Positions 5,345 to 30,198 of a stretch of DNA of 33,502 nt are shown here, piece after piece. The first letter of the stretch is position 1, and each line of letters opens with the position of its first letter. Under the pieces are notes generated by a model. That model saw only the letters and a program-made list of their open reading frames with translations, had not been told where the DNA came from and did no database searches. The stretch is from Clostridiaceae bacterium (lineage in GTDB: Bacteria > Bacillota > Clostridia > DSM-8532): assembly GCA_012728095.1 (NCBI GenBank), contig JAAYFU010000010.1, forward strand, positions 1 to 33,502, read 5' to 3'. Position numbers and translations under genes: made by a program.

Positions 5345-5350
5345 TGTAGG

Positions 5351-6817: not shown

Positions 6818-6848
6818 GCAGCTGACTTAAAGGGAGGCTGAAAGGCGA

Positions 6849-7742: not shown

Positions 7743-7833
7743 AAAAGAGAACTATGCTATAATAACCTCATGTAAAGTTAGTTTATATTGGAACTTGAGG
7801 ATTTGCAATTACGATTTTACGGGGTTTATTATT

Positions 7834-8511
7834 ATGGATACTGTTAAGCTTAATCTGGGGGACAAAATTAAACTACAGCTTTATGACGACATCGATGGGA
7901 CGCAATCCTCACAGGAATTGGCGAGTCAGTACGAAAACTTGCTGCCGGATGGTAGTATGGAAATACTGGCTCCTATAAAAGAAGGAAAAGTTCTTCCTGT
8001 GCATCGCGGCATTGAAATGGATGTTATGTTCGCACAAAACGGAAAAATGTATACATTTAAGGCAGAAACCATCGACCGCAGGGTTACGGGCAACTTATAT
8101 CTTTTGAGAATAAAACCTAAAACAAAAATAGTGCACCTTCAAAGAAGACTTTATTTTAGGCTTGAATGTGTTTTGGATGTAAAGAACCGTTTCTTTGAAA
8201 ATATAGAAGATAAAGACTTGATTGAATATAAAAAATCTATAACCAAAAACATCAGCGGCGGCGGGGTATGCTTACTGACAGACGACGAACCGAAAAAAGG
8301 ATGGTATTTCGACGGAATAATCGATATTGGCGGAGAAATCCATTTTAAGGGCAAGGTTGTTCGTGTTAATGAATTAGACAATGCAGGAAAATACCGTTTT
8401 GAGGTGGGGATTGAATTTGTCGATATAACTGAGCAGGAAAGAGAAAAGGTTATCAGTTTTATTTTTGATACCCAGAGGAAGAAGCTGAAAAAGGACTGGT
8501 TAACCACATGA
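7834..8511 (+). CDS. PilZ-domain c-di-GMP receptor, YcgR/DgrA-like flagellar brake
   Basis: 225 residues. The N-terminal YcgR-like domain (about 1-100) is followed by a PilZ domain with both c-di-GMP signatures: RxxxR in QRRLYFR (R105 and R109) and the N/D-x-S-x-x-G motif in NISGGG (139-144). The frame is open from 7681 inside flhG, but the ATG at 7834 is chosen because it gives the normal family N-terminus and avoids a 60-base overlap; GGGG lies about 9 bases upstream. The stop overlaps the cheB start by 4 bases (ATGA), so translation is coupled. Family knowledge and position indicate that c-di-GMP binding slows or stops flagellar rotation. Which motor part it contacts is not visible. Confidence 0.88.
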   Translation: MDTVKLNLGDKIKLQLYDDIDGTQSSQELASQYENLLPDGSMEILAPIKEGKVLPVHRGIEMDVMFAQNGKMYTFKAETIDRRVTGNLYLLRIKPKTKIVHLQRRLYFRLECVLDVKNRFFENIEDKDLIEYKKSITKNISGGGVCLLTDDEPKKGWYFDGIIDIGGEIHFKGKVVRVNELDNAGKYRFEVGIEFVDITEQEREKVISFIFDTQRKKLKKDWLTT

Positions 8512-9572: not shown

Positions 9573-11638
9573 TGGATATGAATCAATACCTCGATATATT
9601 TATTGAAGAGTCGCGGGAACATCTGCAACAATTAAATACATCGCTTTTGGAACTTGAAAAAGATAATAAAAATAAAGAAGTTCTAAATGAGGTATTTCGC
9701 GTTGCCCATACTCTAAAGGGTATGTCAGGAACTATGGGTTTTACAAAAATGCAAACTTTAACTCACAGAATGGAAGATGTTCTTGATGCCCTTAGAAATG
9801 ACAGATTTATTGCTGATTCAAACATGGTAGATGTTCTGTTTAGATGCCTGGACGCTTTGGAGACTTATGTGAATACCATTGCCACTACAGGCCAGGAGGG
9901 CGACGAAGCTTTTGAAGATGTAATAGACGCGCTACATAAAATCATGGAGAACAATGGATCCGAAAAGAAAGCCGAGGATAAAGCGTCGGGCTCATCGGCG
10001 CCGAAAGCTCAAAATACTGAACCTGCCGCCGCCAAATCAAAAATAGTCGAATTGAACCAGTATGATATTAATGTCATTAAAAAAGCTATTGAAGCCAATA
10101 AAAATGTATTTCAAATACATGTTGTCCTGGATAAAGGCTGCCTGTTAAAAGCAGCCAGGGCATTCATAGTATTTCAGATCCTGGAGAAAAATTCCGAAGT
10201 GATTAAATCCGTTCCGAAGGTAGAGGATATTGAAGATGAAAGGTTCGACTTTGACTTTACCGTTGTCATAATAACCGATAATACTGAGGAATTGTTTATA
10301 AAGGAGATTAATTCGGTTGCAGAAATTTCATCCGTGGAAGTAACGCCGATCGTTCTTGATGAGGCATCCGATAAAGAAGATAAAAAAGAGAGTAATAAAA
10401 ATACCGGTTCTCAAAAAACCGAAACAACTGCGGCCGCTGCCGCATCACCTCAGAGCAATGCCGAGCAGCACAAAAAATTCCAGAAGACTGGTAAGACGGT
10501 CAGAGTTGACATCGATCGCCTTGACATCCTTATGAATCTTGTAAGCGAGCTGATTATTATTAAAACCCGCCTTGAAGAATCCAGCACAAGTAAAGCAGGT
10601 ACGGACATTGAGTCAATAGAATATCTTGAGCGCATAACAACAAGTCTTCATGATGCCGTTATGAAAGTGCGCATGGTACCTGTAGAGACTGTATTTAACA
10701 GGTTCCCCAGGATGATTCGTGATATTTCAAGGGAACTGAATAAGGAAATTGAACTGCATATGTCAGGTGAGGATACTGAGCTTGACCGCACGGTAATTGA
10801 TGAGATCGGCGATCCTTTGATACATATTCTCAGGAATTCTGCCGATCATGGCATTGAAACTCATGAAGAAAGATTAAAAGCCAATAAACCAAGTGTCGGC
10901 AATATATATCTTCGTGCTTTCCAGGATGGCAATAATGTTGTAATAGAGGTTGAAGATGACGGTCAGGGTATTGATGTCGAAAAGGTAAGAAAGAAAATCA
11001 TCCAGAAAGGCCTGGAATCAGCTGAAATAGTTGAGTCTTTAACTGATAAGGAAGTAATCGAGTATTTGTTTAAGCCTAATTTCAGCACTGCCGATAAGGT
11101 TACGGACCTGTCGGGCAGAGGAGTTGGGCTGGATGTGGTAAAGACAAAGATTGAAGCCCTTGGAGGTATTGTTGAGGTAGAATCTGTAAGAGGCAAAGGT
11201 ACTACATTCACTATCCGGATACCTTTGACGCTTGCTATTATTCAAGCGCTGCTGGTCAGGATAGGAAGCGAGAAATATGCTATTCCTTTGGGCTCAATCC
11301 AGGAAATAGAAAATGTGAAGCCGAATGAGATACGTAAGGTCAGGAATCAGGAAGTTATTTTGCTCCGTAATATGGTAGTGCCGATTGTCCGGCTTGGAGA
11401 CATTTTGAGTGTGCCGGATGTTGAACCGGATGAAAATAAAAAATCAATTACCTGTGTAATTGCCAAAAAGGGAGAAAAACTTTCTGCTTTTATTGTGGAT
11501 TCATTGATAGGCCAGCAGGAAATAGTAATCAAGTCGCTTGGGACAGTGCTGTCAGGAGTAAAGTACATTGCGGGAGCGACCATTCTGGGAGATGGTAATG
11601 TCGCACTCATATTGGACGTAAATTCTCTCGCGCTTTAA
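9572..11638 (+). CDS. cheA: chemotaxis histidine kinase CheA
   Basis: 688 residues. P1 Hpt domain with phosphorylated His46 (FRVAHTLKGMSG). P2 CheY/CheB docking domain at about 163-262. P3 dimerisation helices at about 308-372. P4 ATPase with N box HILRNSADHG (about 418-427), G1 EDDGQGID (461-468) and G2 GRGVGLDVVK (515-524). P5 CheW-like domain from about 555 to the end. The P1-P2 and P2-P3 linkers are Ala/Lys/Ser-rich. The ATG at 9572 is chosen over an in-frame start at 9539 inside cheB because it overlaps the cheB stop (TAATG) and begins with the normal Hpt helix. With CheW it links receptors to the motor through CheY, which is not in the window. Confidence 0.97.
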   Translation: MDMNQYLDIFIEESREHLQQLNTSLLELEKDNKNKEVLNEVFRVAHTLKGMSGTMGFTKMQTLTHRMEDVLDALRNDRFIADSNMVDVLFRCLDALETYVNTIATTGQEGDEAFEDVIDALHKIMENNGSEKKAEDKASGSSAPKAQNTEPAAAKSKIVELNQYDINVIKKAIEANKNVFQIHVVLDKGCLLKAARAFIVFQILEKNSEVIKSVPKVEDIEDERFDFDFTVVIITDNTEELFIKEINSVAEISSVEVTPIVLDEASDKEDKKESNKNTGSQKTETTAAAAASPQSNAEQHKKFQKTGKTVRVDIDRLDILMNLVSELIIIKTRLEESSTSKAGTDIESIEYLERITTSLHDAVMKVRMVPVETVFNRFPRMIRDISRELNKEIELHMSGEDTELDRTVIDEIGDPLIHILRNSADHGIETHEERLKANKPSVGNIYLRAFQDGNNVVIEVEDDGQGIDVEKVRKKIIQKGLESAEIVESLTDKEVIEYLFKPNFSTADKVTDLSGRGVGLDVVKTKIEALGGIVEVESVRGKGTTFTIRIPLTLAIIQALLVRIGSEKYAIPLGSIQEIENVKPNEIRKVRNQEVILLRNMVVPIVRLGDILSVPDVEPDENKKSITCVIAKKGEKLSAFIVDSLIGQQEIVIKSLGTVLSGVKYIAGATILGDGNVALILDVNSLAL

Positions 11639-11665
11639 GCTATGGTGAAGACAGGGGGGCTTTCT

Positions 11666-12121
11666 ATGGAGAAAAAACTATTGGACAAAGAAGCTAAACA
11701 ATTTGTCGCGTTCAGAGTCGGAGATCAGGAATATGGTGCTGACATCCACAAGGTTTCCATTATAGAGAAAACACTCAATATCGCAAGAGTTCCCACAACA
11801 CCGAATTACATTAAAGGAGTTGTCAATCTCAGGGGCGAGATTGTTACTGTTATGAGCCTGAGACTGAAATTTGGTTTGCCCGAGATTGAAGAGGATGACG
11901 AAACAAGGACAATAATATTCAGATTTAATGATGTGGTTCTGGGTATTATCGTCGATTCGGTTGACGAAGTTGTAACACTTAGGGAAAGTGATATTGAAAG
12001 TGTTACCCAGATAACAAATGACAGAAGCCTGGATTATATTCTCGGTATCGCTAAAGTTGACGGAAGGCTTATAACTTTATTGAATATTGAAAAGCTCATA
12101 ACCGAGCTTCTTGAAAAATAA
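11666..12121 (+). CDS. cheW: chemotaxis coupling protein CheW
   Basis: 151 residues from the ATG at 11666, which has a strong AGGGGGGC 6-12 bases upstream; an earlier in-frame ATG at 11642 lacks one. A single CheW/SH3-like domain begins KQFVAFRVGDQEYGADIHKV and contains the family signature VPTTPNYIKGVVNLRGEIV. It bridges chemoreceptors and the CheA P5 domain. It lies 27 bases after cheA and 20 bases before cheC, inside the same transcription unit. Confidence 0.96.
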   Translation: MEKKLLDKEAKQFVAFRVGDQEYGADIHKVSIIEKTLNIARVPTTPNYIKGVVNLRGEIVTVMSLRLKFGLPEIEEDDETRTIIFRFNDVVLGIIVDSVDEVVTLRESDIESVTQITNDRSLDYILGIAKVDGRLITLLNIEKLITELLEK

Positions 12122-12141
12122 TTTGAGAGGGTATAAGTGAA

Positions 12142-12765
12142 ATGAAAAGCGAAATTGATATCAATAATATAAATAGTTTTCACCTTGACGTTCTGAAGGA
12201 AATAGGGAATATCGGCGCCGGCAATGCGGCAACGGCTCTTGCTAAGCTTCTGAACAAAAGAATAGACATGAAAGTGCCGCAAATCAGGGTCATGAAATTT
12301 TCAGATGTAAGCGATGTCCTTGGCGGAGCCGAATCGGAGGTTGTTGGCATTCTTCTGGGAGTAACAGGAGATATAACCGGAAACATCATGTTTGTTCTTG
12401 ACTTATTAAGCGCCAAACGCCTTGTTAATATTTTGTTCGGAAGGGATATAGATGCGGAAACCGAGTTTGGCAGCATGGAGACTTCGGCGTTGCAGGAAGT
12501 AGGGAATATCCTTGCAGGGGCGTATTTATCATCGCTGTCTAATCTGACTAATCTAAGAATTCTGTCGGATATTCCCGGAATAGCAATAGATATGGCCGGG
12601 GCAATCTTGAGCGTTCCTGCGGTTGAATTTGGTAAGAATTCTGACACGGTGTTATATATAGAGAATGAATTTACTTATGGAGAAAACAGTGTTGTCGGGG
12701 ATTTTTTCCTGGTACCTGATGAAGCTTCTTATATTCGTTTGTTGAATGCTTTAGGAGTAGCATAA
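12142..12765 (+). CDS. cheC: CheY-P phosphatase CheC
   Basis: 207 residues. Both active-site motifs of the CheC/CheX/FliY family are intact: E20 and N23 with P46 (LKEIGNIGAGNA ... KVPQ), and E119 and N122 with P145 (LQEVGNILAGAY ... DIPG). CheC removes phosphate from CheY and binds CheD, tuning CheD deamidase activity to CheY-P. GAGAGGG lies upstream of the ATG. The next gene is cheD after 2 bases, the usual partner arrangement in Firmicutes. Confidence 0.96.
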   Translation: MKSEIDINNINSFHLDVLKEIGNIGAGNAATALAKLLNKRIDMKVPQIRVMKFSDVSDVLGGAESEVVGILLGVTGDITGNIMFVLDLLSAKRLVNILFGRDIDAETEFGSMETSALQEVGNILAGAYLSSLSNLTNLRILSDIPGIAIDMAGAILSVPAVEFGKNSDTVLYIENEFTYGENSVVGDFFLVPDEASYIRLLNALGVA

Positions 12766-12767
12766 TA

Positions 12768-13253
12768 ATGACAGAAATAATAAGGGTTGGGATGGCAGAT
12801 TTGAAAGCAGCACGCCATCCGGCGATTTTAACTACGCTTGGACTTGGGTCGTGTGTAGGTATAACTTTATATGACCCCAAAACAAAAATTATAGGCATGG
12901 TACATATTATGCTGCCATGCTCGCAGATTGCGACAGCGATCACAAACAGGGCAAAGTTTGCCGACACTGGAATAGCGGATCTATTGGCGGAAATGATATC
13001 ACTTGGAGCTAACCGGAAAGAAATTGTGGCAAAGATTGCCGGAGGAGCACAGATGTTTAAATTCGCCGGCTCTCACGAGACATTAAACATCGGTACCAGA
13101 AACAGCGAAGCCACCAAGCAGGTTTTAAAAGAACTGGGGATTCCTATTCTGGCTGAAGATGTTGGGGGAACTCATGGCCGAACAATTGAAATCTCCTCGG
13201 AGGACGGGAGGCTTATGGTAAAGACGATTGGATATGGTATAAAATATATATAA
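12768..13253 (+). CDS. cheD: chemoreceptor glutamine deamidase CheD
   Basis: 161 residues, the normal length. The catalytic Cys29 (LGLGSCVGITLYD) and His46 (GMVHIMLP) are present. CheD deamidates receptor glutamines and is regulated by CheC. The ribosome binding site GGAG lies inside the end of cheC, so the two are translationally coupled. CheB, CheC and CheD together give the three-part adaptation machinery known from B. subtilis; the CheV part is not in this window. Confidence 0.96.
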   Translation: MTEIIRVGMADLKAARHPAILTTLGLGSCVGITLYDPKTKIIGMVHIMLPCSQIATAITNRAKFADTGIADLLAEMISLGANRKEIVAKIAGGAQMFKFAGSHETLNIGTRNSEATKQVLKELGIPILAEDVGGTHGRTIEISSEDGRLMVKTIGYGIKYI

Positions 13254-13345
13254 GTATAGCGAACGGCATGAGCTTAAATGATTTGTAACCCGTTGGAAAT
13301 AACTTATTTCAATAATGGGTGAGTAATTTAAATAAAGGGTGTCGT

Positions 13346-13753
13346 ATGGATTATATACGTAAATTGCCTCTTCTGATGGCTCTATCAAGCGGAATTATAA
13401 CAGGCTTGGCAGGATATGCCAGCCAGGTTGCGAATAAAGAGAACATGACCAACATGTTCATTGTGATGATTATATTTTACATAGTGGGGCTATTGATAAG
13501 AGGTACTCTTATAGACATTATCGAGACCAACAGGAAAAAGGAAGAAGAAAGAATACGCGAAGAGAAGCGGTTGGCACGGGAAAAAGAGAGAGAAGAAAGA
13601 GAAAGACAAAGAAAAGAGAAAAAAGCTGCGGGGAATGTATCAGGAAACATATTGAATCTTGCGGCGGACGAGGATTTAAAACAGGTAATCAATGATGAAG
13701 AATTTGAAGATCTTCCAATTGCTGATTATATAAGAAGTGAACTCAAAAAGTAG
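13346..13753 (+). CDS. small membrane protein of unknown function between cheD and sigD
   Basis: 135 residues from the ATG at 13346, which has AAAGGGTG 6 bases upstream (a GTG at 13319 is in frame but has no site). Two hydrophobic segments (about residues 5-25 and 33-53) are joined by a short loop. A very charged helix follows (about 57-93, many Arg, Glu and Lys), likely a coiled coil on the cytoplasmic side. The tail is acidic and ends in DLPIADYIRSELKK. I recognise no domain. Its place inside the fla/che operon, just before the flagellar sigma factor, suggests a motility role, but none is shown. A weak hairpin (13288-13320) precedes it. Confidence 0.75.
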   Translation: MDYIRKLPLLMALSSGIITGLAGYASQVANKENMTNMFIVMIIFYIVGLLIRGTLIDIIETNRKKEEERIREEKRLAREKEREERERQRKEKKAAGNVSGNILNLAADEDLKQVINDEEFEDLPIADYIRSELKK

Positions 13754-13767
13754 AGTATTTGATGTGA

Positions 13768-13789
13768 CCCTTAAATTACTTTTTAAGGG
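13768..13789 (+). promoter_or_regulatory. hairpin just upstream of the sigD ribosome binding site
   Basis: A perfect 8-bp inverted repeat, CCCTTAAA (13768-13775) and TTTAAGGG (13782-13789), with a 6-base loop. It ends 5 bases before GGAGGT of sigD. There is no T-run after it, so it is not a standard terminator. It may affect sigD translation or RNA processing. Confidence 0.45.
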
Positions 13790-13804
13790 AGCATGGAGGT
13801 AGAA

Positions 13805-14578
13805 ATGTCGGCATCTGTTATACAGAGGCAACAGGAGTTGTGGAAATTATACAGCGAGACAAAGGATCAGAGTATCAAGGAACAATTGATTATTGAATAC
13901 GCTGATTTGGTTAAATATGTAGCCGGACGTTTAAGTATATATTTCGGTTCCAATGTTGAGTATGATGATTTGGTTGGATACGGGGTTTTCGGGCTTATTG
14001 ATGCCATAGATAAGTTTGATTTATCCAAGAAAGTGAAATTTGAGACCTATGCATCCCTGAGAATAAGAGGAGCTATTATTGACGCGATCAGGGAGCAGGA
14101 CTGGGCTCCAAGATCTTTAAGAAAGAAATGCAAAGAGCTCGAAAGAACATACTATGAACTGGAAAATGAACTGGGGCACTCAGCATCGGATCAGGAGGTT
14201 GCCGACAGGCTGGGAATAACACTGGATGAATTCAATAAGCTATTACAGGAAGTAAATATATCCCAAATGATTTCCCTGGAGGACTACCTGGAGCAAAACC
14301 ATGAAACCGGTCTCGGCCCGTTTTCCATGCAACAGGAATCAGGTTTACCGGAACAGCGTTTGGAGATGATTGAACTTAAAGAAATCCTGGCAGATACAAT
14401 AGATAAGTTGCCTGAAAAGGAAAAAATGGTTGTAACACTATATTATTACGAGGAGTTGACCCTTAAGGAAATAAGCTTGATAATGAACGTATCTGAATCG
14501 AGAATATCACAACTGCATACAAAGGCAATAATGAGAATGCGTGCAAAGTTGGAAAGGCTGAAAAGCGCAATTCTGTAA
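13805..14578 (+). CDS. sigD: flagellar RNA polymerase sigma factor SigD (FliA/WhiG family, sigma-28)
   Basis: 257 residues from the ATG at 13805, with GGAGGT 5 bases upstream. An in-frame ATG at 13793 lies inside that ribosome binding site and is rejected. Region 2 (DDLVGYGVFGLIDAIDKFD; KFETYASLRIRGAIIDAIRE) matches the FliA/WhiG type, followed by region 3 (LGHSASDQEVADRLGI) and a region 4 helix-turn-helix (LTLKEISLIMNVSESRISQL). It directs late flagellar and chemotaxis genes. Position at the end of the fla/che genes is the same as in B. subtilis. No FlgM anti-sigma gene is in the window. Confidence 0.95.
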   Translation: MSASVIQRQQELWKLYSETKDQSIKEQLIIEYADLVKYVAGRLSIYFGSNVEYDDLVGYGVFGLIDAIDKFDLSKKVKFETYASLRIRGAIIDAIREQDWAPRSLRKKCKELERTYYELENELGHSASDQEVADRLGITLDEFNKLLQEVNISQMISLEDYLEQNHETGLGPFSMQQESGLPEQRLEMIELKEILADTIDKLPEKEKMVVTLYYYEELTLKEISLIMNVSESRISQLHTKAIMRMRAKLERLKSAIL

Positions 14579-14684
14579 CGTAGTTCAAACAACTCGGGAC
14601 CCGGTTCGGAATTTTAGATTTCGGTATTGGGTAAGGTATGTAGGCATTGGATTTTCGACAGCGTAGGATAGGAGGAGATAAGAA

Positions 14685-16295
14685 ATGCCGAGTGGTACTA
14701 CAAAAAATGAAAAAGGTTTTGAGTTAACCTATAAAAATGACGGTGTTTATCTCACGGTCTATAAGGCTGTGGATTTTTTTAATAAAGTAAGCGAAAGTGA
14801 AGTGCTTAATACAATCCGTAGAAAGAAAATAAAGAACTATTATGCAAATATAATTTCGGAAACAGTAAGAAAAAGCGAAGGAATACCCGTTAAAATTGCC
14901 GAAGCCCAGGAAGAAGAAAAGATAGATTCTACCGTTGATGTTATTGTATCTGATGATAAAATGGCCGCCTATGTTATCTTGACCCCTCCGGAAGCAGGCG
15001 GATCGCCGCCCACACAGGATGCAGTCGTCCAGGCTTTAAAATCCAAGGGCGTTGTCTGGGGATTGGATGAAAACAGAATTAAGGAGCTAGTTGAAAACCC
15101 GGTTTATAATGTCCAGATACAGGTTGCCGCAGGTGTTCCCCCTGTTAACGGGAAAAACGGTGAGGTTAGGTTTCTTTTTGATATAAATAAGGAAAGAAAA
15201 CCCACCATCATGGAAGATGGAACTGTTAATTATAAAGAGATGAACCTTGTAGAAAATGTCGTTAAAGGTCAGAAACTTGCAGAGTTGATTCCGCCTGTCC
15301 CGGGGAAAAACGGTAAAAATGTTGTCGGAACTGAACTGAAGGCAATTGACGGCAGGAGAGCTTTTATTCCAAGAGGGCGGAATGTAGTATTGAGCGATGA
15401 CGGCAATGAATTATATGCGGCTATTGATGGACAGTTGATGTATGTTGACGGTAAAATCAACGTTTTTCCCACATTTGAGGTTCCGGCCAATGTAGACAAC
15501 TCTACGGGTAATATTAAGTTTATAGGCAATGTTATAGTCAGGGGTAATGTCCTGTCGGGCTTTGAGATTGAGGCAGGGGGCAATATTGAAGTGGACGGCG
15601 TAGTTGAAGCCGCCATCCTGAAGGCCGGCGGAGACATTATAATAAGAAGAGGCATGCACGGCAACGGAAAAGGTGTTCTGATTGCCGGCAACGATATTGT
15701 TTCCAAGTATATCGAAAGTGCGACCGTTCAGGCTCAAAACGATATTAAATGCGAAGCTATCATGCACTGTGACGTAAAATGCGGAAACAAGCTGGAATTA
15801 AGCGGCAGAAAAGGTCTCTTGGTAGGTGGAATAGCAAGAGTAGGAAAGCTGGTTGAACTTAAATATCTGGGCAGCCAAATGTCCACTGTAACCGTTGTCG
15901 AAGTCGGAGTGGATCCCAATCTTAGGGAGCGGCTGAAATTCTTGAAAGGAGAAATTCCGATAATTGAGGAAAACCTGCTTAAAGCCAATCAGGCCATAGC
16001 ATTGCTGAACAAATTAAAACAAACCGGGGAGCTTTCCATGGAAAAGAGGGAGCTTCTTGCAAAGAGTACCCGAACCAGGTTTATTAATGAGAGTAAGCTT
16101 CAGGAATACAAAAAGGAAGTGGAAGAAATCGAAGAAAAACTGCAGCATGGGGCAAACGGACGAATACGTGTGCAGGGAAGTGTCTATCCGGGCGTAAGGG
16201 TTGCTATTGGAAAAAGTATGATGTATATTAAAGAAGAAGCTCATTATTGCACTTTATACAGCGATGGAGCCGATATTCGTATTGGGCCGTATTAA
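14685..16295 (+). CDS. FapA/DUF342 family protein
   Basis: 536 residues. An N-terminal domain (about 1-170) is followed by a polymer-like beta-helix region rich in Gly and Val with short repeats such as GNVIVRGNVLSGFEIEAGGN and GDIIIRRGMHGNG. A coiled coil lies at about 420-485 before the small end domain (SVYPGVRVAIGKSMMYI). This is the DUF342/FapA layout commonly found beside sigD in Clostridia. The family is linked to polar or flagellar assembly in some bacteria, but its biochemical role is unsettled. GGAGGAG lies 9 bases before the ATG. The 106 bases separating it from sigD hold no gene and no clear terminator. Confidence 0.88.
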   Translation: MPSGTTKNEKGFELTYKNDGVYLTVYKAVDFFNKVSESEVLNTIRRKKIKNYYANIISETVRKSEGIPVKIAEAQEEEKIDSTVDVIVSDDKMAAYVILTPPEAGGSPPTQDAVVQALKSKGVVWGLDENRIKELVENPVYNVQIQVAAGVPPVNGKNGEVRFLFDINKERKPTIMEDGTVNYKEMNLVENVVKGQKLAELIPPVPGKNGKNVVGTELKAIDGRRAFIPRGRNVVLSDDGNELYAAIDGQLMYVDGKINVFPTFEVPANVDNSTGNIKFIGNVIVRGNVLSGFEIEAGGNIEVDGVVEAAILKAGGDIIIRRGMHGNGKGVLIAGNDIVSKYIESATVQAQNDIKCEAIMHCDVKCGNKLELSGRKGLLVGGIARVGKLVELKYLGSQMSTVTVVEVGVDPNLRERLKFLKGEIPIIEENLLKANQAIALLNKLKQTGELSMEKRELLAKSTRTRFINESKLQEYKKEVEEIEEKLQHGANGRIRVQGSVYPGVRVAIGKSMMYIKEEAHYCTLYSDGADIRIGPY

Positions 16296-22268: not shown

Positions 22269-22297
22269 TTGATTTTCGTAAAAGTGCATGTTAAAAT
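22269..22297 (+). promoter_or_regulatory. sigma-A promoter of the tct operon
   Basis: TTGATT (22269-22274), 17 bases, TAAAAT (22292-22297). The expected start, near 22304, falls directly before the palindrome at 22308. Confidence 0.65.
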
Positions 22298-22307
22298 GAA
22301 TTATATC

Positions 22308-22322
22308 GTATGTCAGACATAC
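22308..22322 (+). promoter_or_regulatory. palindromic operator, probably for the FadR-type regulator
   Basis: GTATGT-CAG-ACATAC is a perfect inverted repeat with a 3-base centre, placed about +4 to +18 of the predicted transcript. Its GTA/TAC outer bases resemble FadR-subfamily GntR sites. The cluster encodes such a regulator at 27780. A bound regulator there would block the promoter. Confidence 0.5.
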
Positions 22323-22428
22323 AACATACACAGTTCATGATACAGTGTATGGTCTCAACTTTGCCGACATCTTAGTCAAAAGGCATCAATCAAACTGAAT
22401 AATTTTTTATGTAATAAGGAGGAATACC

Positions 22429-23390
22429 ATGAAAAAGACTCTGGTACTTATTGTGGCAATTGTTCTTTGTTTCTCTTTCATGACAGCTTGTGGGAATAAG
22501 AGCGGAAAATACCCGACTCAATCTATTGAGCTGGTAATCCCCGCAAGTCCGGGTGGCGGGAGCGACATTATGGGTCGTCTTCTGGTGGAGATCATCCAAG
22601 AAAAAAACTGTGTCCTCAGCCTGTGGTCGCAGTGAATAAACCGGGCGGAGGCGGCAGCGCAGGGCAGGCATATGTCAACTCCAAGAAAGATCCCAACCAC
22701 ACGATTTTTACCATCAACGATGCTCACACTATTGCCGCAACAGTGTCTAATACAAGACCGGAAGGCAATTTCACTCCCATAGCCATGTTGGCTGCAGATC
22801 AGGTGTTGTTCGTAACCAGCAAGGATTCTGAATACCAAACGATGGATCAGGCTATTGAGGCCATAAAAGCTAATCCCAACGGTCTTTCAGTTGGTGTTGC
22901 AGACCAGTTGGACAAAATATGCGTGTATGATATCAATAATTCCTATGGGGTACAGTTCAAAGATGTATATTTTGACAGTGCAGGCGAAATTGCCACGGCA
23001 TTGATGGGCGGACATGTTAATTTCGGAATGTTTAATCCCAGTGAATGTGCCGCGCTGGTAGAATCAGGCGATTTGAAAGCTCTTGCAATATTCGCTACTG
23101 AAAGAAATCCGGCTCCTTTTGATGATGTTCCGACATTTACGGAAATGGGCCATGGTGATCTTGTATTCGCTATGACAAGAGGTATTTTAGGACCCGCAGG
23201 CATGAGCAGGGAAGCTCAGCTTTTCTGGAGCGATGTATTTAAGGTTGTATGTGAATCGGATGAATGGAAAGAATATCTTAATACCGGTGGTTTAACACCT
23301 TCATACATGGACTGCGATACATATGCCAAATATTATGAGGAAAATGAAAAAATGCTGATTGAAAAGGCTAAAGCACTTGGAGATATTTAA
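22429..23390 (+). pseudogene. tctC: tripartite tricarboxylate transporter substrate-binding lipoprotein TctC, frame broken at an A7 run
   Basis: Two frames together give one complete TctC of about 320 residues. Frame one (from the ATG at 22429, with AAGGAGG upstream) has a lipoprotein signal with Cys21 (SFMTAC) and the start of the binding domain (SIELVIPASPGGGSDIMGRL). It stops at 22633-22635. The rest (PQPVVAVNKPGGGGSAGQAY through the C-terminus at 23390) is one frame back. The frames meet at seven As (22601-22607). A single extra A, or a -1 ribosomal slip at A_AAA_AAC (22602-22608), restores the protein exactly. TctC captures a carboxylate outside the membrane for TctA/TctB. It may be a pseudogene, an assembly error or a slippage gene. 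Confidence 0.85.
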
Positions 23391-23399
23391 TGACAAACC

Positions 23400-23423
23400 G
23401 GGCGGCCTGAAACGCGGCCGCCC
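23400..23423 (+). promoter_or_regulatory. GC-rich intercistronic hairpin between tctC and tctB
   Basis: GGGCGGCC (23400-23407) pairs with GGCCGCCC (23416-23423) around an 8-base loop, 9 bases after the tctC stop. There is no T-run, so it more likely protects the tctC mRNA or limits read-through than terminates fully. Confidence 0.55.
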
Positions 23424-23440
23424 TCTTGTGAGGTGATGAC

Positions 23441-23989
23441 ATGATATCTGAAATCATTTTTGCCGGTTTTATTATTGTCATCTCTGTTATATGGATGATA
23501 ATAGGCATATTCCAGTTGGGTTTTTGGGATCCAAGTGCTGCGGCAGGCTCAGGTTTTATACCGACAGTTTTTGCCGCGATTACATTAGTTTCATCCATCT
23601 TGGTGATTATATCGAACCTTAAGCAGAAAAAAACTTCCAATAACAATAATAAGAAAGATGACATAGAAACTGAAGAAAATGCTGAAGGACAAGCGCTTCC
23701 GGAAGTTGCCGAGAATACAGCCGCTGGAAAAGAGGTTTCCAAAAATTCATGGAAGGAAAAACTCAAACCGATTATTCCTGTCGCATATTGTATTTTCGGT
23801 ATCTTCTGCCTGGAATTATTCGGCCTGGTAATTACAACATTTACTATCACGTTTGGTTGGTTATTGTTTGTAAGCCGTACCGAATGGAAGAAGAGTCTCA
23901 TGATATCTGCCATATTCACGCTTGTAATTTACATCATATTTGAACTGTGGCTCGAGGTTCCTTTCCCCGGCGACATAATAAGACTATAA
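23441..23989 (+). CDS. tctB: tripartite tricarboxylate transporter small membrane subunit TctB
   Basis: 182 residues, four predicted membrane helices (about 4-25, 38-60, 107-140 split into two, and 150-170), with the family end WLEVPFPGDI. A charged, Glu/Lys/Asn-rich insert at about 64-105 separates the helix pairs and makes it a little longer than common TctB proteins. GAGGTGAT precedes the ATG. It appears intact, unlike tctC and tctA on either side. Confidence 0.82.
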   Translation: MISEIIFAGFIIVISVIWMIIGIFQLGFWDPSAAAGSGFIPTVFAAITLVSSILVIISNLKQKKTSNNNNKKDDIETEENAEGQALPEVAENTAAGKEVSKNSWKEKLKPIIPVAYCIFGIFCLELFGLVITTFTITFGWLLFVSRTEWKKSLMISAIFTLVIYIIFELWLEVPFPGDIIRL

Positions 23990-24002
23990 GGAGGGGTATA
24001 TT

Positions 24003-25228
24003 GTGGCTGAAAACTTTCAGATGTTGATTCGTGGCTTAGGCGTCGCAATTTCGCCCATGAACCTCTTGGCCTGTATTGTAGGTGGTATCATGGGACTTAT
24101 TGTCGGAGCAGTTCCTGGGATTGGCGCTGTGGCTGGCTGCTCACTGTTGCTTCCCATTACATATAGCATGAATCCAACAGCCGCTATAATCATGCTTGCA
24201 GGCATCTACTACGGTAATATGTACGGAGGCGCTTACAGCGCAATCCTGTTAAATATTCCCGGTGACTCCCCTGCAGTAATAACCGCTTTGGAAGGACACC
24301 CCTTAGCAAAAAAAGGATTAGCGGGCAAAGCGCTCTATACTGCCAACTATGCGTCCTTTATCGGAGGAACGATCGGTATATTGTTCCTGACCGCAATAGG
24401 CGCTCCATTGGCCAGGATCGGATTAAAATTCGGGCCTGCTGAAACAGCATCTCTTATTTTTATGGCATTGACATCCATTGGCTGGCTATTGGGTGATAAT
24501 CCTGCAAAAGGGCTTATTGCTACCGGACTGGGCGTTATGATCAGCAATATTGGTATGGACGCATCTTCGGCGAATTTCAGATATACTTTTGGTTCAACTG
24601 ACCTGCTTAGCGGAATTGATTTCATACCCCTTGTTATAGGCATGTTCGGACTGAGCCAGGTTCTGTTGCTGATGAACGAAAACTCTGCGCAAGCTAAGGC
24701 GAATGCCTTTGCAGGAAAGTTAAAACTAAGAGAAAGCATGCTTAAGAAAAACCTGGTCCGCTCCTTTTCCAAAACGAGCCTGATTTCGTATGGGGATTGA
24801 TCGGTTCCATGTATATTGGAAACATAATATGCCTGTTAATAGGTATGGCTGCAATCCCTTTTATGGTTAAACTTTTAAGAATTCAAAACAATATTCTGGC
24901 GCCTATGATAATCGTTGTATGTATCGTGGGAGCGTATGCCAACAACAACAGTATGTTCGATGTAGTGGTGATGCTGGCTGCAGGAATACTGTCCTATTTC
25001 ATGCAGAAAAAGGGGATCGGCGTTACTCCTCTTATCCTGGCATATGTTTTGGCACCGCTCTTTGAAATGAAAGTACGCCAGGCCTTGGCAATCTCCAATG
25101 GCGATCTTACGACGTTCGTTACAAAACCCATATCTCTTTTCTTCCTGTTAATAGCTTTTACACTGCTAATAGCGCCTGTAATAGTAAAAACAGTAAAGAA
25201 AAAGACAGAAAAAAGGAGTTTAGCTTAG
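24003..25228 (+). pseudogene. tctA: tripartite tricarboxylate transporter large membrane subunit TctA, internal deletion and frameshift
   Basis: The first frame (GTG at 24003, AAGGAGGGG upstream) is normal TctA through about residue 255 (GLIVGAVPGIGAVAGCSLLL; YYGNMYGGAYSAILLNIPGD), then reads nonsense and stops at 24798-24800. The second frame resumes at about 24750 with KPGPLLFQNEPDFVWGLIGS and runs to 25228. TctA is normally about 500 residues; here only about 408 codons are present. The missing roughly 95-100 residues are the conserved second repeat expected between these points, including the family segment with PESANNA and LGIPGS motifs. This cannot be repaired by one base, so the gene is a true deletion derivative and probably cannot transport. 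Confidence 0.85.
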
Positions 25229-25229
25229 C

Positions 25230-26591
25230 ATGGACTATACATATTTATTTAAGAACAATGAAGGTAAGAAGTCCAAGATAGGTATAATCGGCGCGACAAG
25301 AGGATACGGATATACACTCCTTGCGCAAATACCAAAGGTGGAACATTTAACTCTGAGACTTATTTCTTCCCGTAATGCGGAACAATGTGTTGCCGTACTC
25401 AAGGAATTGGGATATGATGAAAACCTTATCATGGTATGTGAAAGCAAGTCAGAGATCATGAATGCGCCTGAGGAAGCGATTATTGTAACAACCGACTATC
25501 GGCTGACTGTTGAAAGTGATATCAATTCATTGGTTGAATGCACCGGTAATACCGCTGTCAGCTCAGATATCGCAATAGCGGCTATTAACAGGGGCATAAA
25601 TGTATATATGGTTTCCAAAGAGACAGACAGCATTTGCGGACCTTATCTCAACCAGCTGGCGGCTGAAAAAGGCGTGGTTTATTCACTTGTCAACGGCGAT
25701 CAGCCGAGAAATTTGATAGACCTGTATTCCTGGGCAAGGATTCTTGGTCTGGAAATCATTGCGGCAGGAAAATCCAGTGAATACGATTTCGTTTGGGATC
25801 CGGACTCAGGCAACCTTACATATCTTGGCAAAACCGAAAACATGCCGGATATGAAATCTTGCTGGAGATATGAAGGGCCGGGAACTCTGGATGCCCGCCG
25901 TAGATTGCTGGAGAATTATACCGAAGTTGTTTCCGCGGATCTTTGCGAAATGAACCTTGTTTCAAACATCACCGGGCTGGTTCCCGCTTCGCCCAGGTTA
26001 AATTATCCTATTGCGAAGGTAAGTGAATTAGCTGATATTTTCATTCCCGCAGAAGATGGAGGAATTTTGACCGGTCAGGGCGTAGTGGATGTCTTTTACA
26101 ATTTGCGCGCCCCGGATGAGGCAAGTTTTGCAGGAGGAGTATTCATAATCGTTAAATGCGAAAACGAAAAAGTATGGGAACTCTTGAAAGACAAAGGGCA
26201 TTTGGTAAGCCGCAACGGAAAATATGCCTGTATGTATCTGCCATATCACTATATGGGACTGGAAACACCTGTTTCTATAATACTGGGCGATTTCCTGGGT
26301 ATCGGGACCCATCCTGAATGTCGTCAGGTATCCGTGCTTACCGGCGTTGCAGAAAGAGACCTTCCCAAAGGAACCGTTCTGAAAGTCGAAGGACACCATC
26401 ATACCATTGATGGACTGATTCCGGAACTTCTGGTTTGTTCAGATCAAACTAAGAATGTTGTGCCATTTTACCTGCTGAATGGACTGGCTCTAACCCGTGA
26501 TGTGAAAGAAGGGGAAACGATCACCCTCGATACTGTCGATATTTCAAAATGTCGACCTTATAAATATTATGCTGAAAGTTTGAACATTTAA
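25230..26591 (+). CDS. homoserine-dehydrogenase-like NAD(P) oxidoreductase with C-terminal SAF domain (COG4091-like)
   Basis: 453 residues. An N-terminal Rossmann fold has the dinucleotide motif KIGIIGATRGYGYTLL (about 16-31), then VECTGNTAVSSDIAIAAINR and VYMVSKETDS, the pattern of the homoserine-dehydrogenase-like family. The C-terminus is SAF-like (ERDLPKGTVLKVEGHHHTID; LTRDVKEGETITLDTVDI). True homoserine dehydrogenase is not expected because threonine/lysine pathway genes are absent and the context is catabolic. The exact substrate is unknown; a hydroxy- or keto-sugar acid is the likeliest class. AAAAGGAG lies 11 bases upstream and the gene starts 1 base after tctA. Confidence 0.82.
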   Translation: MDYTYLFKNNEGKKSKIGIIGATRGYGYTLLAQIPKVEHLTLRLISSRNAEQCVAVLKELGYDENLIMVCESKSEIMNAPEEAIIVTTDYRLTVESDINSLVECTGNTAVSSDIAIAAINRGINVYMVSKETDSICGPYLNQLAAEKGVVYSLVNGDQPRNLIDLYSWARILGLEIIAAGKSSEYDFVWDPDSGNLTYLGKTENMPDMKSCWRYEGPGTLDARRRLLENYTEVVSADLCEMNLVSNITGLVPASPRLNYPIAKVSELADIFIPAEDGGILTGQGVVDVFYNLRAPDEASFAGGVFIIVKCENEKVWELLKDKGHLVSRNGKYACMYLPYHYMGLETPVSIILGDFLGIGTHPECRQVSVLTGVAERDLPKGTVLKVEGHHHTIDGLIPELLVCSDQTKNVVPFYLLNGLALTRDVKEGETITLDTVDISKCRPYKYYAESLNI

Positions 26592-26605
26592 GGAGGTTTG
26601 TATCT

Positions 26606-27649
26606 ATGAGTAGCTATTTTAAGAGAGTGATGGCTCAGACCCAGACCCATTTTTGGATAAACAATGTAACCCGACAGGAGGCAAAATTCGCTATTGAGCA
26701 GGGCGCTACAGGTTGTACCCAAAATCCGTCATACACTTACAAAATGCTGGTTCATCCTGAAGAAAAGGAGTATGCGATCAATATCCTTAAAGTAATATTA
26801 AAAGAGGAACCGGATGACACGAAAGCTCTTATCAAACTGCAAAGAGAGCTTGTAGGAGAGGTAGCGAAGCAATTCCTCCCCATGTATGAGGAAACCGGAG
26901 GAAAGTACGGATATATAAGCATTCAGGGGGATCCCTTTGACGAAAGCTATGAAACCATTATGGAACAAGCTCATTTTAATCGCGAAGCAGGCGAGAATAT
27001 TATGATCAAGATACCTGTAACCGAGGGGGGGCTAAAGGCTATTGAACAATGTATAGTCGAAGGGATTCCATTAAACTGCACCGAAGTGATGAGTGTCCAG
27101 CAGGCGATTGATGTCCTGGATGCTTATGACCGGGCGGCTGCAAAGACTAAAAAGGCGCCGGTAGTATACATATCCCATATTGCAGGAATTTTTGATCAAT
27201 ATATTGCCGGCATAGTAAAAGAGCAGAATATAGATATTTCCCCGGATTATATTTGGCTCGCAGGCAAAGCGGTGGCCCAGAAGATTCGTGAGTACATGGA
27301 TGTTCGCCAGACACCCGTGAAGCTTATTAACGGAGGAGCAAGAGGATTGCAGCACTTTACCGAATGGGTCGGAGGCGATGTTTCAAATACGATTAACTGG
27401 AAAGGAACTGCCGATCTGCTGCTGGAACAGAATCCTCCTGTTGTTAGCCGCTTTAACAATCCTATATCATCTGTGGTTCTGGATGAACTGGTCAATAAGA
27501 TTCCTGATTTCGAAAAGGCATATTTTACAGGCCGGTTAAAGCCGTCAGAATACGAGGAATACGGTCCTGTGGAACTGTTCCGTTCAAGTTTCTGTCGTGA
27601 TTGGAAGGGTGCTTTGAATATCATAGCGGATTTGAGGAAACAACTTTAA
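26606..27649 (+). CDS. transaldolase-family Schiff-base aldolase
   Basis: 347 residues. The fold-defining features of class I transaldolases are visible: GATGCTQNPS (33-42, the G-x-TxNPS element) and the Schiff-base lysine K135 in NIMIKIPVTEGG. The family active-site segments GYISIQGDP and HIAGIFDQYI follow. It is longer than the short TalC/fructose-6-phosphate aldolase group (about 220 residues). It should cleave or form a carbon-carbon bond in a keto sugar or sugar acid, probably acting on the product of the preceding oxidoreductase. AAGGAGG is 8-14 bases upstream. No kinase lies in the cluster. Confidence 0.82.
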   Translation: MSSYFKRVMAQTQTHFWINNVTRQEAKFAIEQGATGCTQNPSYTYKMLVHPEEKEYAINILKVILKEEPDDTKALIKLQRELVGEVAKQFLPMYEETGGKYGYISIQGDPFDESYETIMEQAHFNREAGENIMIKIPVTEGGLKAIEQCIVEGIPLNCTEVMSVQQAIDVLDAYDRAAAKTKKAPVVYISHIAGIFDQYIAGIVKEQNIDISPDYIWLAGKAVAQKIREYMDVRQTPVKLINGGARGLQHFTEWVGGDVSNTINWKGTADLLLEQNPPVVSRFNNPISSVVLDELVNKIPDFEKAYFTGRLKPSEYEEYGPVELFRSSFCRDWKGALNIIADLRKQL

Positions 27650-27663
27650 TATTTCCGTTATAA

Positions 27664-27696
27664 TTTCAAAAAGTGGCCGCCGGCCACTTTTTGAAA
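27664..27696 (+). terminator. intrinsic terminator after the transaldolase gene
   Basis: TTTCAAAAAGTGGCC (27664-27678) pairs with GGCCACTTTTTGAAA (27682-27696) around a 3-base loop. The T5 on the descending arm suits termination of the tct-oxidoreductase-transaldolase transcript; the symmetric A5 would serve the other direction. Confidence 0.8.
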
Positions 27697-27719
27697 AAAT
27701 TATTAATTTTTAATATAAT
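27691..27719 (+). promoter_or_regulatory. sigma-A promoter of gntR
   Basis: TTGAAA (27691-27696), 17 bases, TATAAT (27714-27719). The -35 box overlaps the end of the preceding terminator hairpin, making gntR and the isomerase a separate transcript. Confidence 0.65.
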
Positions 27720-27779
27720 AATCATAAAAACATACTACAGAAAAACTGGAAAAATATTCATCAGGGGTTATAGTAATAT

Positions 27780-28535
27780 ATGAGTAATAATATAAGCAAT
27801 AAGAAGAATATAGTGAGCAAGCTTAAGCTTGAACTGCGTCGCAACGCTGCTGATATACTTGCCGAGAGGTTTCGGGACCTCATTATACAGGGAGAAATTG
27901 AGGCAGGATATGTGTTTCCGAATGAGAATGATTTTTGCAAGGAACTCTGCGTGAGCCGGAGTACCCTGAGGGAAGCGTACAAAGCATTGGAAACAACAGG
28001 TTTTATCAGGCGCGTAAAAGGGCACGGCACAGTTGTCAATGATTTTTATGCTATCTCCAAATCCGCACCCTTTGAAGTCAGTGTAAAAATGTCCGGATTC
28101 GATGATTTGATAGAATTCCGGGAGATGATTGAATCAGAACTGGCCAAGTTAGCGGCGGAACGTGCGACTGAGAACAATATTGAAAAAATCAGAGAAGCCC
28201 TTTCCAAAATGAAGGAGAACTCTTCCGATATATCCAAGATTACCTATTATGACACAAAGTTTCATATGGAGATAGCATACGCTTCAAACAACAAACTTTT
28301 GATACATACAATGAAGAATGTTGAAGCCGCTTTTAGCGAAGGGGTGTATAATGCATTCCAGGTGGACACAGCCGCTAATATAGAACAGGCGATTATTTTC
28401 CACACAAATATTCTCAATGCCATAGAACGGCGCGATGCGGCAAAAGCACAGGAACTTATGCGTCTGCATATCAGAAGCGTGAAAAGCCGCCTGAGGATGA
28501 CCGCTGAACAGAATACCGGGACTATAAGGAGGTAA
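27780..28535 (+). CDS. GntR-family transcriptional regulator, FadR subfamily (FCD domain)
   Basis: 251 residues. The winged HTH spans about 20-88 (FPNENDFCKELCVSRSTLRE AYKALE region, then the wing GHGTVV). An all-helical FCD ligand domain (about 105-235) has the family Asp/His pattern for metal and acid binding (YYDTKFHMEIA; FHTNILNAI; LMRLHIRS). Such regulators usually respond to an organic acid from the pathway they control, and usually act as repressors. Likely target: the palindrome at 22308-22322. The ribosome binding site AGGGG is rather far (about 12 bases) from the ATG. The gene is followed 1 base later by the isomerase. Confidence 0.88.
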   Translation: MSNNISNKKNIVSKLKLELRRNAADILAERFRDLIIQGEIEAGYVFPNENDFCKELCVSRSTLREAYKALETTGFIRRVKGHGTVVNDFYAISKSAPFEVSVKMSGFDDLIEFREMIESELAKLAAERATENNIEKIREALSKMKENSSDISKITYYDTKFHMEIAYASNNKLLIHTMKNVEAAFSEGVYNAFQVDTAANIEQAIIFHTNILNAIERRDAAKAQELMRLHIRSVKSRLRMTAEQNTGTIRR

Positions 28536-28536
28536 T

Positions 28537-29364
28537 ATGAAATTTGCAGTTTCAATTACAACGCCGGAAGTACAGTTTAATGCCCCCATGGCCCTGCTTG
28601 AAGGATCCTTTGAAGAAAAGCTGAAAAAAGCGAAGGAATACGGTTATGAAGGAGTTGAGCTTGTAACCAATAATCCATCTGTTCTTAATTCAGAGGAACT
28701 TAAGGCAGCTCTTGCCTGTTATGGTCTTGAAACGGCTGCAATCTCCACCGGATGTATATTATCTACACGCGGTCTAACGCTGATTTCCCCTGATAAGGGA
28801 ATAAGGTCGGAATCAGTGAAACTTCTCGCTGATTTGATAGATTTTGCTGCGGAAATGAATACAAAAGTTTTAACCATAGGCAGTTTCAAGGGGACTGCGG
28901 CATTAGCGGGAAGTCTTAATGATGCTTTTAATTACCTGGACGAAGCGTTGTTCACTGTTGATTCCAAGGCAGGCACAAAAAGGGTAAAATTAGTTCTAGA
29001 ACCGTTGAACATAAAAGAATCGGATTTTTTGAACACAGCTCAGGAGACGATAGACTATATCGTAAGCAGAAAATTTACCAACGTGAGACTCCTTTTGGAT
29101 ACTTATCATGTTTTTTTGGCAGAAAAGAATCCTTTGGAGACATTCCGACTGACTGCGCCATATCTTGAGCATGTTCATCTTGCAGACAGTCAGCGGCTGC
29201 CTGTAGGTAAGGGAAGTATAGATTTTTATGGAGTAGAATCGGTGCTAAAGGAAATTGGATATAAAGGCTGGCAAAGCGCCGAGTTATCCCGTGGTTCATC
29301 TCCGGATCTTAACGCAAAAATCACAATTGAAAACATTAAAAATGCATTGACGAACCAAAACTGA
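28537..29364 (+). CDS. TIM-barrel sugar (phosphate) isomerase/epimerase, AP-endonuclease-2 fold
   Basis: 275 residues. A xylose-isomerase-like TIM barrel with a probable metal site E155 (LVLEPLN), D188 and H191 (LLLDTYH), H214 (HVHLAD) and E249 (QSAELSRG). Family members interconvert keto and aldo sugars, epimerise ketoses or isomerise hydroxypyruvate-type compounds. Exact substrate unknown. It shares a transcript with the GntR regulator (AAGGAGG upstream), so its level probably follows that of the pathway regulator. Confidence 0.85.
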   Translation: MKFAVSITTPEVQFNAPMALLEGSFEEKLKKAKEYGYEGVELVTNNPSVLNSEELKAALACYGLETAAISTGCILSTRGLTLISPDKGIRSESVKLLADLIDFAAEMNTKVLTIGSFKGTAALAGSLNDAFNYLDEALFTVDSKAGTKRVKLVLEPLNIKESDFLNTAQETIDYIVSRKFTNVRLLLDTYHVFLAEKNPLETFRLTAPYLEHVHLADSQRLPVGKGSIDFYGVESVLKEIGYKGWQSAELSRGSSPDLNAKITIENIKNALTNQN

Positions 29365-29453: not shown

Positions 29454-30029
29454 CTAATACTTCTGGTTTATATAACTGTCAGTCAAAGATTTTCTTTTAT
29501 CATCTTTCAAAATGTTATTTGCCTTAAGAGCGTTTGCAATAACCTCGCTTTTTGTATGAAGTATCAGAAAATCATTGTCGGTCAACCCACCGGAAGTATG
29601 AAATGTGTCAATTTCAAGCAGAATATCGGGATCCTTGATTACAATCTCTATCAGTTTATTTTTTAGCTTATGGGACTTAACCCTTACATAGTAAGCTTCG
29701 GCTTTGAAATCGATAAGTCTCAACAAAGCCAAAGTTGCATTATCTTTTTTGTTATAATAATTCATAGACTCCGCCAGGTATGCCTGACGCTCTTTTTCAG
29801 TATTTTTAGGGTCGCGGGCAATCCATTGCCAATACTTGGCGCTGACATTGTAATAGTGATAATTATATACGGCTTTTTTTACATTGTCTATTTTTGTAAA
29901 AGGCTTGATGCCTAGACTTTCCATATATCTGTAATTATCTTCAATAAATTCGTTTTTTGTCAAATCGCCCATCTTGTACTGTATCAGCAAACTCTGCCTG
30001 TGTCTTAAAAACCGGTCAAATTTGTTCAT
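29454..30029 (-). CDS. DUF6648-like conserved protein of unknown function
   Basis: 191 residues from the ATG at 30029-30027, preceded on the minus strand by AGGCGGTG 7 bases away; the frame is open further upstream to 30194 but without a site. It reads MNKFDRFLRHRQSLLIQYK and is soluble, helical and Lys/Tyr-rich, with an N-terminal half (TKNEFIEDNYRYMESLGIKP; YNYHYYNVSAKYWQW) that I recall as the DUF6648 family of Clostridia. No enzymatic motif is visible. It is a single-gene unit between two terminators or promoters. Confidence 0.6.
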   Translation of the reverse strand: MNKFDRFLRHRQSLLIQYKMGDLTKNEFIEDNYRYMESLGIKPFTKIDNVKKAVYNYHYYNVSAKYWQWIARDPKNTEKERQAYLAESMNYYNKKDNATLALLRLIDFKAEAYYVRVKSHKLKNKLIEIVIKDPDILLEIDTFHTSGGLTDNDFLILHTKSEVIANALKANNILKDDKRKSLTDSYINQKY

Positions 30030-30052
30030 GAATAACACCGCCTGTATGACAC

Positions 30053-30081
30053 ATGATAAACAAATTTTAATGAAAAGTAAA
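30053..30081 (-). promoter_or_regulatory. sigma-A promoter of the DUF6648-like gene
   Basis: On the minus strand: TTTACT (30081-30076), 17 bases, TATCAT (30058-30053). A tandem 8-base repeat GGCCATGA x2 (30082-30097) abuts the -35 box. Confidence 0.5.
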
Positions 30082-30115
30082 GGCCATGAGGCCATGATAA
30101 TTGGTATGTATCTTG

Positions 30116-30145
30116 TTGACAGCTCAAAACCGGGTATGGTAATAT
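30116..30145 (+). promoter_or_regulatory. sigma-A promoter of the trpB gene
   Basis: TTGACA (30116-30121), 18 bases, TAATAT (30140-30145). It is divergent from the DUF6648 promoter. Confidence 0.65.
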
Positions 30146-30153
30146 GTATTAAA

Positions 30154-30198
30154 TTATATGGATGTTTTGCGCCGTGAGGGACGTAGAAATCCATATAA
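30154..30198 (+). promoter_or_regulatory. leader hairpin upstream of trpB
   Basis: A 10-bp perfect repeat TTATATGGAT (30154-30163) / ATCCATATAA (30189-30198) lies right after the predicted transcription start, with a 25-base loop. No T-run follows. No T-box or other known riboswitch element was recognised. Confidence 0.4.

Follow-up and report, generated by a model that had tools for sequence, protein, structure and literature searches.

A transaldolase-like enzyme and a DXR-II-like oxidoreductase in a clostridial transporter locus: a possible kinase-free variant of four-carbon acid sugar catabolism

Which compound is degraded by a locus that places a transaldolase-like enzyme in the operon of a carboxylate transporter, with no kinase beside it? 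The question is raised by a contig of a Clostridiaceae bacterium (JAAYFU010000010.1, assembly GCA_012728095.1), which was analysed over its 33,502 nucleotides and is referred to here as the window. The window is the complete contig C41 of a draft genome of 2.22 Mb (82 contigs, 99.87% complete). From 22.3 kb onward it carries, in this order, tctC, tctB, tctA, a DRL-type oxidoreductase (DRL), a transaldolase-like enzyme (TAL), a hairpin, gntR and an IolO-like TIM barrel. The set forms a genuine catabolic locus that is both conserved and regulated, and its two central enzymes, DRL and TAL, are by their sequences atypical members of their families. The locus may represent a variant of four-carbon acid sugar catabolism, with a chance clearly below even that the transaldolase fold has acquired a new reaction in it. 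The features of the locus are the following:

22308..22322, no strand assigned: putative GntR operator GTATGTCAGACATAC with the core TATGTCNGACATA, a perfect 7-bp inverted repeat
22429..23390, + strand: tctC, solute-binding protein, frameshifted (PF03401, 79.6 bits; unbroken part 22623-23390)
23441..23989, + strand: tctB, small membrane subunit (PF07331, 69.7 bits)
24003..25228, + strand: tctA, large membrane subunit, interrupted (PF01970 positions 1-232, then 327-423, in two frames)
25230..26591, + strand: NAD(P) oxidoreductase of the DRL type, from the sister clade of DXR-II (PF21135, DRL_cat, 97.2 bits)
26606..27649, + strand: TAL, transaldolase-like enzyme (PF00923, TAL_FSA, 89.8 bits, cut-off 27)
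27664..27696, no strand assigned: hairpin with perfect 16-bp arms, probable terminator
27780..28535, + strand: GntR/FCD regulator (PF00392, GntR helix-turn-helix, and PF07729, FCD, both over cut-off)
28537..29364, + strand: IolO-like xylose-isomerase-type TIM barrel (PF01261, AP_endonuc_2, 130.8 bits)

The original prediction, made from the sequence, had placed five kinds of protein in one locus. All of them are present, and in a profile search of the window proteins all the named families score well above their Pfam cut-offs. The adjacent tctC, tctB and tctA genes match the three Pfam families of the tripartite tricarboxylate transporter, and the regulator, with a GntR helix-turn-helix plus an FCD domain, is of the FadR type.

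Recurrence and regulation of the gene set

The TAL protein was scanned against a genome collection of 84,980 species, which yielded eight loci; the genes in the comparison loci were located by tblastn and a codon-scored gene caller. The identical order TctC-TctB-TctA-DRL-TAL-GntR-IolO, with an unbroken tctA, is found in Lachnospiraceae UBA3863 (locus L011). In the closest relative (L010, genome G010) the order DRL-TAL-GntR-IolO is kept up to the contig end. Two loci of rumen Spirochaetales (L014 and L016) contain an IolO-like gene, a sigma-54 regulator, TctCBA, DRL and TAL, a third (L015) retains DRL and TAL with a fragment of TctA, and L017 has the rearranged order TAL, TctCBA, DRL. The closer TAL relatives of L012 and L013 (70% identity) lie near TRAP and BKACE genes. 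The co-occurrence, which the original prediction had proposed to follow across genomes, is thus not restricted to this contig. A class-wide sample of 222 genera yielded TAL in four of them and DRL in one. Since both genes are so rare in the class, an adjacency that is repeated across two phyla does not arise by chance. No match to TAL was found in plasmids, and none to the Klebsiella DRL in E. coli genomes.

The operator core TATGTCNGACATA occurs once in the entire window genome, upstream of tctC, and the chance expectation within the window is 0.08 matches with one mismatch allowed. In the genomes G407 and G408 of two other Clostridia, which carry L012 and L013, it occurs exactly twice each and only upstream of TAL, in the stretch that separates TAL from a divergent run of cupin, racemase and TRAP genes; a GntR ortholog that is 55% identical to the window protein adjoins TAL in both. 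A copy with one mismatch precedes tctC in L011, and throughout L010-L013 GntR orthologs of 51-84% identity adjoin TAL. In the Spirochaetes neither the core site nor a GntR ortholog beside the genes was seen. The shared, conserved site joins the regulator to the transporter operon and to TAL in a single regulon, in which the GntR protein would control the operon from TATGTCNGACATA, possibly as a repressor. Because the hairpin lies between TAL and gntR, the locus is probably expressed as two transcripts, split at this point.

The transporter genes of the window are damaged in this assembly. The frame of tctC is broken at or near a run of seven A residues (22601-22607, read directly in the sequence). 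In tctA about 94 codons are absent and the frame changes near 24746-24800, with the loss of about Pfam positions 233-326. There is no second TctA elsewhere in the genome. Both lesions are confined to the transporter, the enzyme and regulator genes being unbroken, and they may reflect either incipient decay of the locus or faults of the assembly.

The oxidoreductase and the transaldolase-like enzyme

The DRL protein matches the DXR-II (DRL) of Brucella (PDB 3upl and 3upy, E=2e-35). In the phylogenetic tree it groups with proteobacterial relatives outside DXR-II, and the branch that separates the two has a support of 100/100. The TAL-linked DRLs nest among the Otn-linked enzymes of Klebsiella and Comamonas (97/94), with a weaker support for the exact sister (94/91). 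Lys193 and Thr229 anchor the substrate in DXR-II (PMC3847144), and both residues are retained by the two proteins of the set that are most closely related to Brucella DXR-II. The window protein keeps K191 and has the changes K193S, T229D, H250N and R320L. Position 193 is Ser or Gly in the DRL clade and position 229 is Asp in 20 of its 20 members, none of which keeps the K193, T229 and R320 of DXR-II. A role in isoprenoid synthesis through the DXR-II reaction was rejected, given these losses and the presence of DXR-I in the genome.

The company of the DRL relatives points to their product. Fourteen plasmid loci of the clade were read, whose gene tables are incomplete. These relatives adjoin carboxylate transporters, and an OtnK-family kinase and a class II aldolase are present in 8 of the 14 loci. 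In six there is PdxA; five of these have TctCBA but no OtnK, and the sixth (Paracoccus TOH) has both. Apart from Agrobacterium L044, in which OtnK and LtnD are located about 7 kb from DRL, no LtnD, DenD or OtnI is listed in the 14 stretches, as far as their incomplete tables extend. In the Klebsiella DRL locus, OtnK scores 545.6 bits against the NCBIfam equivalog for 3-oxo-tetronate kinase (cut-off 350), and the four aldolases tested reach 278-300 against a cut-off of 250 for the 3-oxo-tetronate 4-phosphate decarboxylase (OtnC) model. The apionate pathway was considered for these Otn-linked relatives and discarded, as the same Klebsiella kinase fails the 3-oxo-isoapionate kinase (OiaK) model (123 against 700). 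Because the DRL relatives are found with bona fide OtnK and OtnC, 3-oxo-tetronate is the likely DRL product, which DRL alone or with an isomerase may form from the imported acid. This link of the oxidoreductase to the tetronate loci had escaped the original prediction.

Two of the plasmid arrangements deserve mention in their own right. On the conjugative Klebsiella pneumoniae plasmid pRHB39-C10_3 (L039:4820-10362), OtnK, OtnC, a DeoR regulator, a gluconate-type symporter and DRL form a locus of the tetronate type, with DRL in the place expected for the dehydrogenase and isomerase genes. In Paracoccus (L042:945-4847 and L050:22-3799) PdxA, TctCBA and DRL are joined by a TIM-barrel isomerase and a dihydroxyacetone-kinase-family protein, which suggests a second branch, by way of a ketose with three or four carbons.

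The AlphaFold model of TAL has a pLDDT of 91.9. Its best matches among solved structures are transaldolases of 350 residues, headed by 7bbw (Z 35.6, root-mean-square deviation (rmsd) 2.2, 313 residues aligned). The Schiff-base lysine, K132 in TalB and K135 in TAL, is present in all 11 rows of alignment A1 and in all 12 family members of the TalB alignment. Four active-site residues of E. coli TalB are replaced in all 12 family members (D17N, E96Q, R181I and S226G), whereas K132, N35, T156 and R228 are retained in all of them. D17N and E96Q are also evident in HMMER alignments to the transaldolases of the PDB; for R181 the placement is less certain, as the profile alignment gives a different result there. 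Gln is also the residue of fructose 6-phosphate aldolase (FSA) at the position of TalB Glu96. TalB structures with this exchange are on record (4rz5 and 4rz6, E96Q and E96Q/F178Y).

In aldol cleavage Asp17 takes the proton from the C4 hydroxyl (PMC7092467), and R181 is a phosphate binder (PMC3962226). With Ile, Gly and Arg at the positions of R181, S226 and R228, respectively, two of the phosphate ligands are lost and R228 is kept. The ordinary aldol cleavage that had been predicted for TAL does not agree with the Asn found at the position of the general base Asp17 in every aligned family member. A retained Schiff base together with the loss of the C4-hydroxyl base and of two phosphate ligands fits the decarboxylation of an unphosphorylated beta-keto acid, a step that these residues and the gene context suggest for TAL. 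The window's own genus also encodes another transaldolase subfamily of about 30% identity (L031:8116-9174 and L032:1-1019), with two copies in one genome. It keeps Asp17 and Arg181, has Gln at Glu96, and is located near ABC transporter genes.

Proposed route and competing explanations

The absence of a kinase, already remarked in the original prediction, extends beyond the locus. The whole window genome has no match to the DUF1537 (OtnK) family PF07005, and consequently no other contig of the assembly conceals the usual OtnK; this search covered DUF1537, and other kinases, such as that for dihydroxyacetone, were not searched for. DRL is paired with OtnK and OtnC in Proteobacteria and with TAL in Clostridia and Spirochaetes. 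The simplest reading of these pairings would be that TAL replaces OtnK and OtnC.

TctCBA systems are importers of acids. The inducible operon would thus take up a four-carbon sugar acid of the erythronate or threonate type, which DRL would oxidise using NAD(P). The IolO-like TIM barrel would, if needed, act as a 2-oxo/3-oxo isomerase, the outcome being 3-oxo-tetronate. TAL would then bind the C3 ketone as a Schiff base and drive the loss of CO2, which would leave the same dihydroxyacetone enamine that a transaldolase makes, to be released as dihydroxyacetone or handed to an aldehyde acceptor. This complete route, from tetronate import through DRL oxidation and possible isomerisation to a TAL decarboxylation in place of OtnK and OtnC, is the favoured account, at somewhat less than an even chance. 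It is more tentative, and less likely than not, that TAL is a transaldolase-fold enzyme which has come to decarboxylate unphosphorylated beta-keto sugar acids through a Schiff base, as a plain decarboxylase or as a decarboxylating transferase, fed by a DXR-II-like tetronate dehydrogenase or oxidoisomerase and bypassing both kinase and decarboxylase. Much of the course predicted originally is preserved here (an imported hydroxy acid, its oxidation, a possible isomerisation, Schiff-base chemistry and an unphosphorylated substrate), and only the ordinary aldol-cleaving transaldolase is given up.

Several points weigh against the tetronate route. The transporter is broken in this assembly, by the tctC frameshift and the tctA gap. 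The TIM barrel is nearest to the C6 epimerase IolO and reaches just 54 bits with 2-oxo-tetronate isomerase. The substrate and the decarboxylation are themselves deduced, and we know of no Schiff-base decarboxylase of the transaldolase fold. TAL relatives of 43-54% identity adjoin split transketolases and other genes, among them racemase-like ones (L028-L030, L062-L064), or a convergent reductase gene (L027). Further along the stretch, L062-L064 also encode a DUF1537 kinase and PdxA. As the neighbours of the relatives vary, the TAL family may serve several keto acids and need not act on 3-oxo-tetronate.

With such a breadth of the TAL family, and with IolO as the nearest relative of the TIM barrel, two other routes keep some probability. 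One of them, which is unlikely, is a carboxylate version of the sulfo-TAL pathway, a kinase-free transaldolase route of gut Firmicutes (PMC11489063, PMC9594981). DRL and the IolO-like enzyme would make a 5-keto-aldonate of the fructuronate or tagaturonate type without a kinase, and TAL would transfer the dihydroxyacetone unit of this acid to glyceraldehyde 3-phosphate, so that fructose 6-phosphate and tartronate semialdehyde are formed. The kinship of the TIM barrel with IolO, a 5-keto-L-gluconate epimerase, is in its favour, as is the fold that TAL shares with BmSF-TAL (8bc3; Z 21.4, rmsd 2.2, 200 aligned). The TAL relative of L027 has as its neighbour a gene resembling tartronate semialdehyde reductase (368 bits against a cut-off of 397). 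This pairing looked decisive and was downgraded, since the two genes are convergent and the reductase is outside the TAL operon. On the other hand, the DRL relatives are tied to C4 enzymes, and the disappearance of Asp17, R181 and S226 disfavours both aldol cleavage and a phosphorylated acceptor. The second route, less probable still, assigns to DRL the reverse of the DXR chemistry. As an oxidoisomerase it would convert an apionate-like acid to a branched 3-oxo acid, which TAL would decarboxylate or cleave to erythrulose for transketolase. The DXR-II relatives are indeed reductoisomerases (PMC3847144), a pairing of apionate oxidoisomerase with 3-oxoisoapionate kinase has been described (PMC11747546), and split transketolases neighbour some TAL relatives (L028-L030, L062-L064); the kinase scores of the Klebsiella DRL locus, however, favour the tetronate over the isoapionate substrate (545.6 against 350 and 123 against 700, respectively), and the window locus has no apiose genes.

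A housekeeping function is very improbable. It would have DRL make 2-C-methyl-D-erythritol 4-phosphate for isoprenoids as a DXR-II, and TAL serve as the transaldolase of the pentose phosphate pathway. The family names agree with it, and TAL is the sole TAL_FSA protein of the genome. Nevertheless, the genome encodes a full DXR-I (508 bits), the window DRL has lost the DXR-II residues K193, T229, H250 and R320, and TAL lacks D17 and E96, is rare and is sited in a Tct operon. Moreover, cellulolytic clostridia manage without transaldolase (PMC7029132).

Should the tetronate route be correct, a clade of DXR-II-like oxidoreductases without a function in PMC3847144 would receive its first one, and the transaldolase fold probably a new catalytic role, in a pairing of fold and reaction that would be new. 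L-Threonate is a breakdown product of plant ascorbate (PMC12540250), and the route would show how anaerobic bacteria of the gut and rumen could use plant-derived sugar acids without a dedicated kinase. Genes labelled as transaldolase in Clostridia may lie outside the pentose phosphate pathway.

Some neighbouring genes complete the description. In L062, L063 and L064, which belong to one genus, the TAL relative is part of a long gene run (about 6-18 kb of each) with two split transketolases and racemase-like, GH43-like, D-threonate kinase-like DUF1537 and PdxA genes, and a pectate-lyase-like gene is located upstream. In the window a DUF6648 protein (29454-30194, - strand) separates the locus from a TrpB-like gene, a neighbour order that is conserved in L010. 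The left part of the window (3293-16295) contains largely ordinary flagellar and chemotaxis genes (FlhA/FHIPEP, CheA-like, FapA).

Comparison with known systems

Among the open-licence papers searched no description of this gene set as a pathway was found, in line with the original prediction, which had not recognised the set. The known systems that it recalls resemble it in part. The DRL protein shares with Brucella DXR-II the fold family over most of its length and K191, but belongs to a separate clade with full support and differs at the four positions given above. The uncharacterised DXR-II-like oxidoreductases DLO1 and DLO2 (PMC3847144) are related to it, equally outside the DXR-II clade and with non-DXR-II residues at 121 and 229; as compared by the residues named in that work, the window Asp229 differs from DLO1 (Leu/Ile/Val) and from DLO2 (Pro/Ser/Ala). 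For the TIM barrel, IolO (the 5-keto-L-gluconate epimerase TM_0416) is the best family match (NF041099; PDB 2zvr, E=5.9e-27), though with 181.2 bits against a cut-off of 300.

The 350-residue transaldolases of Neisseria (3clm) and Corynebacterium (3r5e) share with TAL the fold (Z 33.6-35.6) and the Schiff-base Lys, whereas in TAL the catalytic Asp and Glu are amidated and the phosphate-binding Arg and Ser are lost. The sulfofructose transaldolase of the sulfo-TAL pathway likewise has the same fold and acts, without a kinase, on an acidic ketose. No sulfoquinovose genes were noted, however, the oxidoreductase and the transporter differ, and the active site of TAL is changed; the likeness of the two enzymes was seen at the level of the fold. 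The pathway for L-threonate and D-erythronate formed by LtnD or DenD, OtnI, OtnK and OtnC has in common with the window locus a carboxylate transporter, a GntR or DeoR regulator and an oxidoreductase, and the relatives of DRL are linked to its OtnK and OtnC. The window genome differs by lacking an OtnK-family kinase and its locus by lacking OtnC, LtnD and DenD, in place of which it carries DRL and a transaldolase-like enzyme.

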